Both the position numbers and the translations under genes were made by a program. A stretch of 64,000 bases of DNA, taken from Corallococcus soli (GTDB taxonomy: Bacteria; Myxococcota; Myxococcia; Myxococcales; Myxococcaceae). Each line of letters begins with the position of its first letter. Position 1 is the stretch's first letter. Where the stretch lies: NCBI RefSeq assembly GCF_014930455.1, contig NZ_JAAIYO010000005.1, positions 434,001 through 498,000 of the forward strand, in the 5' to 3' direction. This document shows positions 44,735 to 50,239 of the stretch, piece after piece. Under the pieces are notes generated by a model. It worked only from the letters and a program-made list of their open reading frames with translations, was not told the DNA's origin and searched no databases.

Positions 44735-46252
44735 TCAGTCCCCGCCGTGCGACAGGGCGAGGGCCCGCCGGTCCACCTTGCCGGCCGGGGTGCGCGGCAG
44801 GGCGGTCAAAAGGCGCAGCGTGCGGGGCAGCTTGTAGCGGGCGAGGCGGCCCTCGCAGGAAGCCAGGAGCGCCGCGAGCGTGGGGGCCGTCCCGGGCCGG
44901 GGGACGACGAGGGCCCGGGGGACTTCTCCCCACTTGGGGTCGGGGACGCCGATGACGCAGGCCTCCGCGACGTCGGGGTGGCCGGCGAGGACGCTCTCCA
45001 CCTCCGAGGGGTGGATGTTCTCACCGCCGGAGATGATCAGGTCCTTGCGCCGGCCCTCGATGCGGAAGAGGCCGGCCGCGTCGCGGGAGGCCAGGTCGCC
45101 GGTGTGCAGCCAGCCGTCCACGAAGGCGCGGGCGGTCTCTTCCGGGTTGCGCCAGTAGCCGGCGCACAGGTGGGGGCCCCGCAGCAGCAGCTCGCCCACG
45201 TCGCCGGGGTGTTGCTCACCGTCGATGCGAGCCTCGACATGGAACAGGGGGACGCCGACGAAGCCCGGGTGGGAGCGCACGGCGTGCGAGGGCAGGGAGA
45301 AGTTGTTGGGTCCCGCTTCGGTGAGGCCGTAGCCGGTGCGAAAGGGGATGTCGCGGGCGAAGAAGCGCTCGAAGACGGGGGCCGGACAGGGGGCGCCGCC
45401 GCTGATGAGGAGCTTCAGACGGGAGAAGTCCACCGAGTCGAAGCGCGGGTGGCGCTGCATCTCGATGAACATGGTGGGCACGCCGAAGACGACGCTGACG
45501 GTGCCCGAGTGGATGAGGTCGAAGGTCTGCTCCACGTCGAAGGCCCGGCACACGACGGAAGCGCCGCCCACGTACACGAGTGGCAGCGTGAACACGTTGA
45601 GGCCGCCGGTGTGGAACAGGGGCGCGTTGAGCAGGGCCACGTCGTCCTGGGTGAGGCCCCAGCTGACGACGGTGTTCGCGGCGTTCGCGGTGAGCGAGCC
45701 ATGGGTGAGCACGGCGGACTTCGGCAGGCCGGTGCTGCCCCCGGTGGAGCACAGCACCCACGGCGAGTCGGGCCCCACGTCGATGACGGGCAGCGTGCGG
45801 GACGAAGGCAGGTCATCCCGCGAAGCGAAGGAGCGTTCACCGGGCAGCGGATCCGCCAGGGGGATCCAGTGCCGGACCTGGGGCAGCAAGGGGCGCAGCG
45901 CGCCCACCTGGGAGCGGAACTCCGGACCGAAGCAGACGACCCGGGGTTCGACAGCCACAAGCAGCCCCCGCAGTTCCATCACACCCAGGCGCCAGTTGAG
46001 GGGCTGGAGCACGGAGCCCAGCTTCGCGCAGGCGAACAGCAGGTCCAGCGTCTCCACGCCGTTGTACGCGAGCACGGAGACCCGGTCCCCAGGAGTCACC
46101 CCCAGGTCGAGCAACAGCAGCGCCGTCCGGTGCGCCGCCGCGTTCCACTCGCGCCACGAGATGCGCCGGTTGTCACGGAGCGCGTCGATGAGCGCCACGC
46201 GCTCCGGGGCAAGCGACGCCCGCCGGGCCAGCCAGTCATGGACGATGGGCAT
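44735..46252 (-). CDS. AMP-dependent acyl-CoA synthetase
   Basis: A 505-residue member of the adenylate-forming superfamily. Motifs: STGGSTGLPKSAVLTH (P-loop), GYGLTEAGP, GWLHTGDLA, GRRKDLIISGGENIHPSEVE and the catalytic Lys in RTPAGKVDRR. It should activate a carboxylic acid to acyl-AMP and acyl-CoA. It is a paralogue of the ligase at 51.5-53.0 kb. ATG 46252 is preferred, and an in-frame GTG 11 codons upstream is possible. Its 5' end faces the AlbA_2 regulator gene across the inverted repeat, which may control both. Substrate unknown. Confidence 0.92.
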   Translation of the reverse strand: MPIVHDWLARRASLAPERVALIDALRDNRRISWREWNAAAHRTALLLLDLGVTPGDRVSVLAYNGVETLDLLFACAKLGSVLQPLNWRLGVMELRGLLVAVEPRVVCFGPEFRSQVGALRPLLPQVRHWIPLADPLPGERSFASRDDLPSSRTLPVIDVGPDSPWVLCSTGGSTGLPKSAVLTHGSLTANAANTVVSWGLTQDDVALLNAPLFHTGGLNVFTLPLVYVGGASVVCRAFDVEQTFDLIHSGTVSVVFGVPTMFIEMQRHPRFDSVDFSRLKLLISGGAPCPAPVFERFFARDIPFRTGYGLTEAGPNNFSLPSHAVRSHPGFVGVPLFHVEARIDGEQHPGDVGELLLRGPHLCAGYWRNPEETARAFVDGWLHTGDLASRDAAGLFRIEGRRKDLIISGGENIHPSEVESVLAGHPDVAEACVIGVPDPKWGEVPRALVVPRPGTAPTLAALLASCEGRLARYKLPRTLRLLTALPRTPAGKVDRRALALSHGGD

Positions 46253-46301
46253 CCTCAAGATTCTAGGTCTCCCAGTCGGTCGCACAGGAGCACGATTCGA
46301 C

Positions 46302-46368
46302 GGAGTTTGCGGCGAGTTTGCGGATACCCTACACTGTGAAGGGTACCCGCAAACTCACCGCAAACTCC
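46302..46368. promoter_or_regulatory. Large inverted repeat with four GAGTTTGCGG elements (operator or RNA hairpin)
   Basis: Two 29-nt arms (46302-46330 and 46340-46368) are complementary at 27 of 29 positions, with a 9-nt loop ACACTGTGA. Each arm contains two direct copies of GAGTTTGCGG 11 nt apart, giving four copies in mirror order. It lies 13 nt before the ATG of the AlbA_2 gene and 49 nt upstream of the divergent ligase start. It could be an autoregulatory operator, or an mRNA hairpin that hides the ribosome binding site. Confidence 0.75.
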
Positions 46369-46381
46369 CACGAGAATCAGC

Positions 46382-48193
46382 ATGATGCGGTACCTCCGTG
46401 AACAAGTAAGGACCGCGCTGGAGCAGGTCCACCAGGGGCGCCCCGCCCACCAGCTTGAAGGCACCACCCTCGACTTCAAGCGCGAAGGCCGCAGTCTCGA
46501 TGACTTCATGCGGGACCTTGCGAGTGATGCCATCTGCTTCGCCAATGCGAGTGGCGGGGCACTCGTCGTCGGTGTGGACGACAAGCAGGGAGGCTCGCCC
46601 GCCTTTCTAGGAACCCAGCTGGATATCGACCAGGTTCGCAGGCGGATCTATGAGTTGACCCGCCCGTCGCTGCTAGTCGAACTGGAGGAGCACCATTTCG
46701 CGGGGGTGCGCTTGCTCATTGCCTTCGTCCCCCAAGGGCTGGAAGTTCATTCGGACCCACAGGGACGCTCCCGTCGAAGGCTAGGCAACGACTGTCTCCC
46801 CATGAGCCCGGAGGACATTGCACGGCTGCGCGACGAGCGCCGTAGCTTTGACTGGTCGGCTCAGCCAAGCGGACGCGACATCCAGGAAGCCTCTCCCCTG
46901 GCCATCCAAGCCGCGAGGGAAAGCCTGGCTGCTCTCACCGACGAGCGCCGTGACTACGCACGCCTACGAAGCCCGCTGGACCTGCTGCGAACATTGGGGT
47001 TGGTCACCCAGGAGGGGGAATTGCTGAAGGCGGGTGAACTGCTCTTCTGCGATGCACCTCCTTCTCCAGCCATTCAGTACCAGTACCGACAGACGCCTGG
47101 CGGCGAGCCTCGTGCCATCCAGCGCATCAACGCTCCCCTCGTCTTGGCGTTCGACAAGGCGCTCGGGCTGATCAGGGCCCGGCTCAATCAAGTGCCTGTG
47201 TCACTCCCCAACGGGCAGCTCCTGGATGTGGCCGACTTCCCAGCGCTGGCCATCCGGGAAGCCCTCGTCAATGCGCTCGTCCATCGGGACTATCGACTCC
47301 AGGGCACGGTGCTCATTGAGCACTCCCCTCAAGTTTTCATCGTGACCTCCCCAGGGCCCCTTGTCGCAGGCGTCACCCCTGAGAACATCCTCACGCACCC
47401 GCCCAAGCCCCGGAATCCGGTCCTGGCCAAAGCATCGCGCACCCTCGGCTTCGCCGAGGAGGCTGGCCGTGGCATTGATCGCATGTACCGAGAGATGATC
47501 CGTTCAGGTCGTGACCTCCCTCACATCGAAACGTTCAGCGATCTGGTTCAAGTGAAGCTCGTGGGGGGAGCAGCCAGGACCCAGATCACCCGGTTCATCA
47601 CCCAGCTTCCCGAACATGAACGGGATGACACGGACACACTCCTCATCCTGTTCTGGCTGCGCCGCCGTCGAACAGTCACCGCCCTGGAGTCAGCCCCCTT
47701 GCTCCAGAAGTCAGCGTTGGAGACAGAAACCATCTTGCGGCGCTTGGCCAGCAATGAGGTTTCCATCCTGGAAGCCACGCGACAGACCGCACGCAACGCC
47801 CATCCCGCCTACCGCCTGCGTGGAGAAGTCCTCAGGGAACTCGGCCCCGCCGTGGACTACCAACGAAGGACGGTGGACGAGATGGACCGGAAAGTCATGA
47901 CCCACGTCCGCGAATATGGCCGGGTCAACAACCGAACCCTCCAGAACCTGTTCGACATCGATGTTCCCCGAGCGCGGGACGTCTTGTCGGACATGGTGGA
48001 GCGGCAGCTACTTGTGAAGACTTCCGCGCAGCAGCGGGGGCCATCCGTGGAGTACGGCCCAGGTCCGAAGTTTCCGGGAAAGGCTCGCGCGAAGAAGAGC
48101 GCAGCCTCCAAGAAGACGGTGGGAAAGCGCGCCGCGCAACAGGCCTCCCTGTTCCAAGCTTCGACACCGCGCAAGCCCCGCGGCCGCGCCTGA
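46382..48193 (+). CDS. AlbA_2-domain ATP-binding regulator (Schlafen-like/HATPase_c_4)
   Basis: A 603-residue protein. The N-terminus is an AlbA_2 (Schlafen-type) domain (TTLDFKREG; FANASGGALVVGVDD). The middle has the associated GHKL-like ATPase (AIREALVNALVHRDY; VTSPGP; LGFAEEAGRGIDRMYREM). The C-terminus has winged-helix-like segments (VNNRTLQNLFDIDVPRARDVL) and an Ala/Lys-rich tail. Such proteins are annotated as putative transcriptional regulators and sometimes occur in defence loci. GC is visibly lower than in neighbours, hinting at transfer. The strong inverted repeat 13 nt upstream may be its own operator. Function is not established. Confidence 0.85.
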   Translation: MMRYLREQVRTALEQVHQGRPAHQLEGTTLDFKREGRSLDDFMRDLASDAICFANASGGALVVGVDDKQGGSPAFLGTQLDIDQVRRRIYELTRPSLLVELEEHHFAGVRLLIAFVPQGLEVHSDPQGRSRRRLGNDCLPMSPEDIARLRDERRSFDWSAQPSGRDIQEASPLAIQAARESLAALTDERRDYARLRSPLDLLRTLGLVTQEGELLKAGELLFCDAPPSPAIQYQYRQTPGGEPRAIQRINAPLVLAFDKALGLIRARLNQVPVSLPNGQLLDVADFPALAIREALVNALVHRDYRLQGTVLIEHSPQVFIVTSPGPLVAGVTPENILTHPPKPRNPVLAKASRTLGFAEEAGRGIDRMYREMIRSGRDLPHIETFSDLVQVKLVGGAARTQITRFITQLPEHERDDTDTLLILFWLRRRRTVTALESAPLLQKSALETETILRRLASNEVSILEATRQTARNAHPAYRLRGEVLRELGPAVDYQRRTVDEMDRKVMTHVREYGRVNNRTLQNLFDIDVPRARDVLSDMVERQLLVKTSAQQRGPSVEYGPGPKFPGKARAKKSAASKKTVGKRAAQQASLFQASTPRKPRGRA

Positions 48194-48204
48194 GCCCCGA
48201 ACGA

Positions 48205-48233
48205 AGCACGGGCGCGAAGCGTGCGCCCGTGCT
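48205..48233. terminator. Bidirectional hairpin terminator
   Basis: AGCACGGGCGC and GCGCCCGTGCT form a perfect 11-bp stem with a 7-nt loop between convergent genes. Confidence 0.8.
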
Positions 48234-48250
48234 CCGGTGGCTACGTCACA

Positions 48251-50239
48251 TCAATCCCGCGAAACGAAGTGCGCGGAGATCTTGTTCCACACGGCCGGCG
48301 TGACACCCATGCTCAGGTGGTCGTACGCCATGCCCTCCTGCTTCGCGTCCGCGGTCTTCTTCGCCGCGGTCCAGCCCTGGGTGAGCTGGGGCATCGCCGC
48401 GATGCTCGCCTCGAACAGCACGCCGTCACCGCGCGGCGCGGACGTCGTGGACGTCATGCCGTCCGTCTCGTAGGGCGCCGCGCCGGCCGCCGTGCCGTAG
48501 AGCACGTAGAGCGACTTCAGGCGCGGATCCAGGCCGTGCTCCGCCAGCCGGGTGATGAACTTGCCGCCCATCTCCATCGCCGCCGCGATGCCCAGGCCCT
48601 GCATGATGCGGTACTTCGCGTAGTTGGAGATGTTGTAGCCCTCCGCGTTCTGGTTCGTGTTGTACGCGTGGTACGCGAAGCACGGCGAGCCCACGGGGTC
48701 ATACGCGGTGGTGCGGCACACGCGGTGGTCCGTCGCGGCCATGTAGCCCGCGGCGATGAACGGGTTCAACGGGTTGTAGATGAGCTTCGAATCCAGCCAC
48801 GGGAAGTAGCGGTTCTCGTTCGGATCCACGCTGTCCCACACGTACGAGCTGCGGTCCGGAATCGGGTACGTGCCGCGCAGGTCGTACGCCGCCTGGAGCT
48901 GGCCCGGGTACGCCGTGACGTACTTGCCGCTGTCGTTCACGGCGCCGAACAGGCTCATGTTGTACTCGTCGAAGTTGAACGCGCTCGCGGCCAGGCCCTG
49001 GGTGGTGTTCAGCGACTGGAGCGTGCTCGCGGACACCGGCGCACCCGTGCTGCTCAGGCCCGTGATGTTCGACAGGTAGATGCGGCGGAAGAAGTCCGGC
49101 CACATGCTGCCGGCGCCCTCACACACGCTCTCCGCATACGGGTTGTTGTACCAGGGCACTTCCGGGCCCCACGTCACGCACTGGAACGCGGAGAAGTACG
49201 TCCACGGCATCGGCCCACGGCCCACCGGCGCGTTCGACGACGTGCTCGCGATGGTCAGCGTGTGGATGGGGTGGCGGAAGTTCAGGTCGATGCCCTTGTG
49301 CGGCCCGGACAACGGCACGTACACGCGCACGGAGTCGTCATACGGCGGCACCTGCGACGCCTGCTCCTTCGCCAGCCGCTCGAAGAGCCGCGTGGTGCTG
49401 AAGCCACCCCACGTCGCCGCGTTCGCCAGCCACGGGTCCGCCGCCAGCACGCCCTTGCTCCACGCGACGATGTCCACCCGCGCCACGCCCGGGTGCAGCG
49501 CCTTGATGCGCTTCACCGCGTTGGCCACGTGGATGGCGTGGTTGTAGTTGTCGCCGTGGAACGAGCCGAACGTCACCGCGTACACGCAGCGGCCCTTCGA
49601 CTCCAGATCCTGCACCAGGCCCGTCTTCTGGGCCGCGTTCTCGTACGTGCCGCCCGAACCGTTGTTCCCGTTGGGGAACATCCAGACGTTCGCGTCCTGG
49701 ATGGCGCCGTGCACCAGCAGCGTCGGCGTCAGGTTCACGTTGCAGGTGCGCGCCGCCGTGGCCCGCCCCTTGTGCAGAAGCACGTAGCGCGCCGCCGGCT
49801 TCGTGGGCCCCGGCGAAGGACAGGTGCTGCCCGCCGCCGTGGCACAGCTGTTCCCGTAGGCCAGGTTGAAGGCGTCCACCAGCTGCTGGTTGAGCGAACC
49901 GAAGTACGTGGCCAGCGGGTAGTCGCTGGACTGGTACGTGTCCTGGTAGCGCAGCTTCTGCGTGCGCGGGTTGTAGTACTCGCTGCGGAAGCGCTGGCGC
50001 CCCTCCAGCAGCTCGATCTGTCCCCAGGACCACGAGGGCGGCGTCAGCGTGCCCACCACGTTGTATCCATTGGTCGGCGTGGTGACCGCGTCGAAGTACG
50101 GCGCCAGGTCCGCGTCCAGCGCGGCCTCCGCCGTGCCGACGGCGGCCTCCACCGGAGGCGCCTCCGACGCGGGGGGTTCTGCCCCGCAGCCTGCCATCAG
50201 CAATGCGGCCGTGAGCGACAACGTCCAGGTGCTTCGCAT
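48251..50239 (-). CDS. Secreted lipoprotein with lipase-like alpha/beta hydrolase domain
   Basis: A 662-residue protein with lipoprotein signal (lipobox LMAGC, Cys18). LLVHGAIQDANVWMF supplies the oxyanion-loop HG. The nucleophile elbow appears as VAWSKGVLAAD (Ser in A-W-S-K-G instead of G-H-S-x-G), and a late His (YDHLSMG) could complete the triad. Several Cys pairs suggest disulfides. It resembles large secreted triacylglycerol lipases or esterases of myxobacteria. GGAGG precedes the ATG. It lies downstream of the hydrolase-ligase-ketosynthase run with a 132-nt gap, so may be separately transcribed. Confidence 0.8.
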   Translation of the reverse strand: MRSTWTLSLTAALLMAGCGAEPPASEAPPVEAAVGTAEAALDADLAPYFDAVTTPTNGYNVVGTLTPPSWSWGQIELLEGRQRFRSEYYNPRTQKLRYQDTYQSSDYPLATYFGSLNQQLVDAFNLAYGNSCATAAGSTCPSPGPTKPAARYVLLHKGRATAARTCNVNLTPTLLVHGAIQDANVWMFPNGNNGSGGTYENAAQKTGLVQDLESKGRCVYAVTFGSFHGDNYNHAIHVANAVKRIKALHPGVARVDIVAWSKGVLAADPWLANAATWGGFSTTRLFERLAKEQASQVPPYDDSVRVYVPLSGPHKGIDLNFRHPIHTLTIASTSSNAPVGRGPMPWTYFSAFQCVTWGPEVPWYNNPYAESVCEGAGSMWPDFFRRIYLSNITGLSSTGAPVSASTLQSLNTTQGLAASAFNFDEYNMSLFGAVNDSGKYVTAYPGQLQAAYDLRGTYPIPDRSSYVWDSVDPNENRYFPWLDSKLIYNPLNPFIAAGYMAATDHRVCRTTAYDPVGSPCFAYHAYNTNQNAEGYNISNYAKYRIMQGLGIAAAMEMGGKFITRLAEHGLDPRLKSLYVLYGTAAGAAPYETDGMTSTTSAPRGDGVLFEASIAAMPQLTQGWTAAKKTADAKQEGMAYDHLSMGVTPAVWNKISAHFVSRD

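Follow-up and report, generated by a model that had tools for sequence, protein, structure and literature searches.

Proteins that combine an AlbA_2 domain with a GHKL-type ATP-binding domain occur in very different bacteria, where they are annotated as helicases or ATP-binding proteins, and little was found in the literature on how they are controlled. Here we describe one such gene in a window of Corallococcus soli DNA (the whole stretch that was analysed, 64,000 nucleotides), whose product, P0001, carries an AlbA_2 and a HATPase_c_4 domain, a combination that we take to be the COG2865 type. Its closest solved relative is DIP2311 of Corynebacterium diphtheriae (PDB 3lmm, from structural genomics), which shares its protein family over most of the length (E 2.3e-69 for profile 2-451; VIA Z 34.2 with rmsd 16.8 over 452 residues) at 25-29% identity, and whose C-terminal domain also aligns with that of P0001 (Z 8.8, rmsd 6.4 over 73 residues). 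To our knowledge, no DNA site is known for this protein, which PMC8780604 also names. Photorhabdus TrlG has the same two Pfam domains and is likened to P0001 by domains alone. TrlG restricts growth at 36 °C, as mutations relieve the arrest and the wild-type allele restores it, and its operon is induced by a temperature shift (PMC7554251, in part). Unlike P0001, it belongs to a putative operon of three genes, with TrlR as a small, separate protein predicted to be a regulator, and the sections of PMC7554251 at hand describe no palindromic operator for it. The N-terminal domain of P0001 aligns with the Schlafen core domains (SLFN11, SLFN13 and SLFN14), and AlbA_2 domains fused to or near argonautes are mentioned in excerpts of PMC6299218. 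In the open literature, judged by titles and abstract starts among the matches listed, no operator is reported for the AlbA_2 / HATPase_c_4 family.

Repressors that work on several half-sites are known outside this family. TtgV on its operator (2xro) is one, and a structural neighbour of a predicted winged helix in P0001; DeoR/CggR of the SorC family and the AbiEi antitoxin may work in a similar way, as oligomeric or autoregulatory repressors on several half-sites (SorC tetramers on DNA, PMC11229326; AbiEi and inverted repeats, PMC7319586; both sources in part). No relationship of these three systems to P0001 was found beyond the winged-helix fold, and the oligomeric state of P0001 is a proposal.

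Upstream of the P0001 gene lies a palindrome with arms at 46302-46330 and 46340-46368, in which 27 of 29 positions are paired across the 9-nt loop ACACTGTGA. The symmetry extends into the loop, where CAC-T-GTG is centred on T46335, and 30 of 33 positions per side pair in total. Each arm holds two copies of GAGTTTGCGG 11 bp apart, and all four copies are identical over 10 nt. The pairing count and the four identical copies bear out the first-pass annotation, which had described a near-perfect inverted repeat with each arm itself a direct repeat; its placement of the repeat 13 nt before the ATG and between divergent genes also agrees with the coordinates (palindrome end at 46368, ATG at 46382). 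Folded as a single strand, the palindrome reaches -66.8 kcal/mol (z -9.6), and none of 200 shuffles was as low, though a strong fold relative to shuffles is expected of any such palindrome. In the 9.4-Mb genome, GAGTTTGCGGNGAGTTTGCGG occurs solely in the two arms, and allowing up to two mismatches in AGTTTGCGNNNAGTTTGCG again yields just the same two arms; the genome search for element pairs that had been proposed earlier thus gave no second paired site here. Across 16 genomes of the genus, the two-mismatch scan of AGTTTGCGNNNAGTTTGCG matched six, with true sites in four (G000, the own genome, G008, G012 and G015); the remaining matches are three single-arm ones in G001 and G005, and the reversed control pattern gave 10 matches. 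Two further candidates were rejected: a dispersed repeat (REP, MITE), for there is one site in the genome, and an intrinsic terminator, of which none was found in 46200-46420, where the stem has no T-run. The features are collected in Table 1.

Table 1. Features of the P0001 locus, in window positions.
Feature	Position	Strand	Basis
Candidate palindromic operator, 29-bp arms, 9-nt loop, dyad 46335	46302..46368		Pairing and layout conserved upstream of relatives
Outer left half-site GAGTTTGCGG	46303..46312	+	Sequence reads
Candidate -35 TTGCGG inside outer left half-site	46307-46312	+	Inference
Inner left half-site GAGTTTGCGG	46314..46323	+	Sequence reads
Candidate -10 TACCCT	46325-46330	+	Aligns with the TANNNT of 13 of 17 actinobacterial loci
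Candidate -10 TACACT, 17 bp from TTGCGG, overlaps TACCCT	46330-46335	+	Alignment
CACTGTG at dyad	46332..46338		Symmetry reads, own locus and relatives
Inner right half-site, inverted	46347..46356	-	Sequence reads
Outer right half-site, inverted	46358..46367	-	Sequence reads
AlbA_2 / HATPase_c_4 / predicted winged-helix gene, 603 aa (P0001)	46382..48193	+	ORF, Pfam, structure prediction
SLFN_AlbA_2 domain, aa 26-141	46457..46804	+	Pfam
HATPase_c_4 domain, aa 320-392	47339..47557	+	Pfam
Predicted C-terminal winged helix, aa 497-560; residue 529 codon 47966-47968	47870..48061	+	AlphaFold2

We consider it probable that the palindrome is a four-half-site operator through which the P0001 gene is negatively autoregulated, being read by the protein's own winged helix. 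The AlbA_2-HATPase-winged-helix protein, as a dimer of dimers or a tetramer, would bind the four half-sites, with the two half-sites of each arm, about one helical turn apart, contacted by the C-terminal winged helix. Once bound, the protein would cover the promoter and a transcription start at the palindrome's centre, repressing its own gene, until the AlbA_2 and ATP-binding parts sensed a ligand or event that released it. The computed findings are the element and how it recurs with the gene, the agreement among half-sites, the promoter-like elements in relatives and the predicted winged helix; from them we infer P0001 as the reader, its oligomer, the repression and the signal. That four half-sites bind an oligomer, plausibly the AlbA_2 protein, had been suggested before, and it gains support from the layout, the half-site agreement, the predicted winged helix and the promoter-like elements of the relatives.

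Relatives were collected from several genome sets. The near-genome search covered 98 genomes (36 with any match); genome contigs gave 17 loci; the phylum search found a relative at E 1e-80 in 11 of 195 genomes; and overlapping actinobacterial samples at E 1e-120 gave 12 of 394, 10 of 297, 4 of 8, 15 of 297 and 1 of 5 genomes. The upstream regions of 47 loci were read and given a sequence-blind four-site score (two 7-mers 10-12 bp apart, then two inverted copies), which was compared with 60 dinucleotide shuffles of each. The own locus scores 42 of 42, with 0 of 60 shuffles as high. It turned out that 25 of the 47 loci, from Myxococcota and Actinomycetota, exceed all their own shuffles, including 7 of 7 in the own family (scores 39-42 of 42); the other 22 do not exceed all of theirs. 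A layout of paired half-sites about 11 bp apart in each arm, with the arms inverted and adjoining the start codon, thus does recur upstream of homologues, where a lack of conservation would have spoken against the earlier proposal. Between the inner cores the spacing is 34 at the eight best loci of the myxobacteria, and 32-36 in those actinobacteria whose cores are clear. L009, L010, L011 and L063, which make up a second family in the myxobacteria, are degenerate, scoring 25-32 with 0 of 4 above all shuffles, and upstream of L052 and L053 (31-35% identity) and L095 we found no such element. Given its recurrence with the gene, the palindrome is, as judged from sequence, under selection. Besides, L067-L071 carry a variant in which a single long palindrome, near-perfect and made of AGTTTTATATCACCCTGTC and its mirror (with small differences in L069 and L070), lies 4-5 nt ahead of the start codon, and neither arm has a second half-site.

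The letters of the half-site differ from group to group, and within a locus the copies agree. In the own family the word is GTTTGCG in L003-L005, GTTTGTG in L006 and L008, and GTTTGAG in L007 and L060; all four copies are alike in five members, and in two (L005 and L008) three of the four are alike and one deviates by a single base. All four cores read ACTTT in Pseudonocardia (L036); CTTTGAG or CTTTGGG is the word of a large actinobacterial group, and ACTGAG that of a more distant one (about 40% identity). When half-sites were exchanged between loci within a clade, agreement of the half-site flanks was higher within loci than between them for all six half-site pairs, the direct repeats included. 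In permutations that ignore ancestry, outer and inner copies agreed in the myxobacteria (n=7) at 0.79 vs 0.65 on the left (p 0.0008) and 0.81 vs 0.65 on the right (p 0.0028), and in the actinobacteria (n=17) at 0.56 vs 0.41 on the left (0 of 5000) and 0.60 vs 0.43 on the right (p 0.0004). This test left out L004, L075, L080, L067-L071, L009, L011, L063 and L081, and kept L076, L077 and L083 despite imperfect right cores. Since left-right complementarity is all that a hairpin needs, the agreement between neighbours on the same arm suggests that a single kind of domain reads the site repeatedly. In the actinobacteria, the comparison with the highest agreement among the six is inner with inner (0.72, vs 0.56 for outer with inner), so the half-sites are not fully equivalent and palindromy adds something beyond four equal sites, which a hairpin would predict as well.

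Promoter-like elements are placed inside the repeat in relatives. When 17 actinobacterial loci are aligned by the left inner core, 13 of them share TANNNT at a single offset (mean 0.21 per offset), the anchors having been set by eye on the TTT core after the run of TANNNT had been noticed; no offset upstream of the arm has TANNNT in two loci. This alignment omitted L075 and L080 (near-duplicates), L067-L071 and L073. The picture is weaker in 10 myxobacterial loci (near-duplicate L004 omitted), where TTGNNN lies in the outer left half-site in 8 and TANNNT follows 17 bp on in 3. In the group with ACTGAG half-sites, TANNNT precedes the start codon at -12/-13 in all eight loci and TTGNNN at -35/-36 in four of them, with start codons picked by eye and L095 omitted; five of the eight score above all shuffles. 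Such spacing fits leaderless transcripts, so the palindrome would not be transcribed there. At the own locus, the consensus promoter scan found no promoter. TACACT at the dyad was rejected as a conserved -10, for its second base varies among relatives, and it remains a candidate.

The product itself has a part that could read the half-sites. Both domains of P0001 are well above their curated cut-offs in Pfam (SLFN_AlbA_2 53.7 bits against 25.3, HATPase_c_4 52.7 bits against 26), and the NCBIfam search of the protein gave no match. AlphaFold2 on 44 aligned rows (mean pLDDT 85.9) predicts the C-terminal winged helix, with helices at 497-512, 517-524 and 528-540 and a two-stranded wing, and aa 481-566 folded alone gave the same helices and wing. 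Its structural neighbours are MarR and IclR regulators, some of them DNA-bound, and also Z-alpha, eS25 and SelB domains; for instance, 7el3 matches with Z 8.6 (rmsd 4.2 over 73 residues) and 2xro with Z 8.4 (rmsd 2.1 over 66 residues), and neighbours at Z of about 8-11 are in the range where unrelated folds occur too. From the prediction, the half-sites are more likely read by the C-terminal winged helix than by the AlbA_2 domain. E293, N297, H301, G325, G364 and D366 are invariant across the 44 rows. Positions 26, 31 and 67 align with acidic residues of Schlafens, and we presume that they are the Schlafen nuclease residues; among the 42 rows with letters there, position 26 is E in 42, position 31 is D or E in 42, and position 67 is acidic in 41.

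Within the predicted recognition helix, the second residue, 529, varies with one base of the half-site. In 11 myxobacteria, P or T at 529 goes with C at the variable base of the left inner half-site, Q with T, and I or V with A. The base classes are separated by 24 of 585 columns for the seven closest loci, by 6 of 548 for the 11 myxobacteria and by 3 of 542 when L073 is added, with the classes of L009-L011, L063 and L073 taken from the left inner half-site; column 529 is in all three lists, and the tree needs two changes for three classes. L064, L065 and L075 break the rule, and in L009-L011 the base of the outer left half-site differs from that of the inner one. That residue 529 sets the half-site base is therefore a lead, confounded by ancestry. 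A coevolving residue was also sought for the first half-site base (G vs C), and this candidate was rejected, as 0 of 560 columns separate the 31 loci of the whole set; 21 of 560 do so once the mixed locus L066 is dropped.

The reader of the palindrome was assigned by computation alone, and the site could instead serve another regulator or control the divergent gene, which encodes a putative acyl-CoA ligase on the minus strand (start at about 46252, read from the ORF). On that strand TAGAAT (46260-46265) stands 7 nt before the ligase start codon, and TANNNT-like words occur there in several relatives. This could be a leaderless promoter of the ligase next to the palindrome, in which case the operator might act on the ligase too. 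We regard this alternative as unlikely: the element stays with the gene where there is no ligase neighbour (L006-L008 and the actinobacteria), P0001 has a predicted winged helix of its own, and a wider regulon is not suggested by any further paired site in the genome.

A hairpin in the mRNA is also improbable as the main explanation. The transcribed palindrome would fold and block or gate translation, perhaps with protein bound, and the folds are indeed very stable at the own locus and several relatives. Some actinobacteria have a ribosome-binding sequence inside the right arm; for example, L084 has a perfect palindrome of nearly 60 bp upstream of the gene, with AAAGGAG in the right arm and -57.8 kcal/mol. 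Besides, left-right agreement tops the six half-site comparisons in actinobacteria, and the winged-helix fold resembles RNA-binding domains (SelB on SECIS RNA, eS25); Schlafen-type and winged-helix domains can bind RNA. However, selection on RNA pairing should spare G-U, and the arm mismatches of 31 loci, read as RNA, are 42 G-U vs 52 A-C (p 0.35), with five of 36 loci skipped for poor right cores and the register of L067-L071 unsure; by subtraction, 38 G-U and 42 A-C remain without L067-L071. This absence of a G-U bias, together with the promoter placement, makes the hairpin the weaker reading. Also against it are the agreement of same-arm copies beyond chance, which pairing does not need, the actinobacterial promoter-like elements inside the palindrome and not upstream, and the weak folds of some relatives (L036 -14.8 and L077 -16.0 kcal/mol). 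The RNA family search gave no family at gathering score; its seven sub-threshold matches are all microRNA precursor models. An mRNA fold that blocks translation, the other option of the first-pass annotation, is disfavoured, since there is no G-U bias and the predicted transcript of the ACTGAG group starts at the start codon; at the own locus, where the promoter is poorly defined, it is still conceivable. Where strong folds bury the ribosome-binding sequence, as in L084, an effect on translation is possible. A DNA operator is favoured by the promoter-like elements inside the repeat, the lack of G-U bias and a damaged operator without its gene in one genome.

That structural or mobile DNA without a control role (a dispersed repeat, terminator, or recombination or insertion end) accounts for the palindrome is very improbable, for although the gene is lower in GC and patchily present (3 of 16 genus genomes), the site is single in the genome, has no T-run, keeps its position by the start codon in relatives, and has no copy at the other end of the gene (48193-48260 read).

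The damaged operator belongs to the history of the gene. GC is 63.3% in the P0001 gene vs 70.3% in the window, so the lower GC given in the first-pass annotation is true, and third-position GC is 0.74 vs 0.93 and 0.95 in two neighbouring genes; the low value suggests a different origin. The three genus genomes with the gene, G008 with its orthologue being one of the genus, each have it beside the same ligase gene, as does L060 from another genus. Among 18 ligase loci, 3 have the gene, 7 lack it and have an adjacent lipase-like gene, 7 have another neighbour, and 1 has an orphan operator. In this last one, L101 of the Corallococcus genome G015, the palindrome is kept just beyond the ligase start, the gene is absent, and 11 nt including one half-site are missing. 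The same ligase neighbour in another genus and an orphan operator in a gene-less Corallococcus make an arrival here look not recent, and the gene looks like an older resident with repeated loss. Of the suggested transfer with its own control element, the part that stands is the joint occurrence of gene and element in different contexts; a recent-looking arrival does not fit L060 and L101. The plasmid collection (16 records, 27-35% identity, E limit 1e-20) and the phage collection (17 records, 24-27% identity, E limit 1e-10) hold distant relatives only.

Autoregulation of this kind is ordinary; the noteworthy part is the family, the rewriting of the four copies and the Schlafen-type product. 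A more far-reaching picture, which we hold to be doubtful, is that a Schlafen-type domain, an ATP-binding sensor and an own repressor domain would form a one-gene self-silencing module for defence or growth arrest, kept off through the four-site operator until a nucleic-acid trigger, with the operator code rewritten several times and residue 529 setting the variable base. In PADLOC, three matches to argonaute-associated models fall within aa 209-393; as they are partial, we claim no defence system. The 67-bp candidate operator exists in natural variants, with half-sites and a recognition-helix residue that differ between lineages; it offers a direct assay of when the protein leaves its own promoter, hence of what it senses, and a test case for a joint change of specificity in a self-regulator and the four copies of its site.

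Finally, two other stretches of P0001 were observed. Before the C-terminal winged helix, aa 417-479 (47630-47818) form a second winged-helix-like run of helices and strands, and by this model one monomer may carry two winged helices. At the end of the protein, aa 568-603 (48083-48190) make a Lys/Arg-rich tail of low prediction confidence that is variable among relatives.
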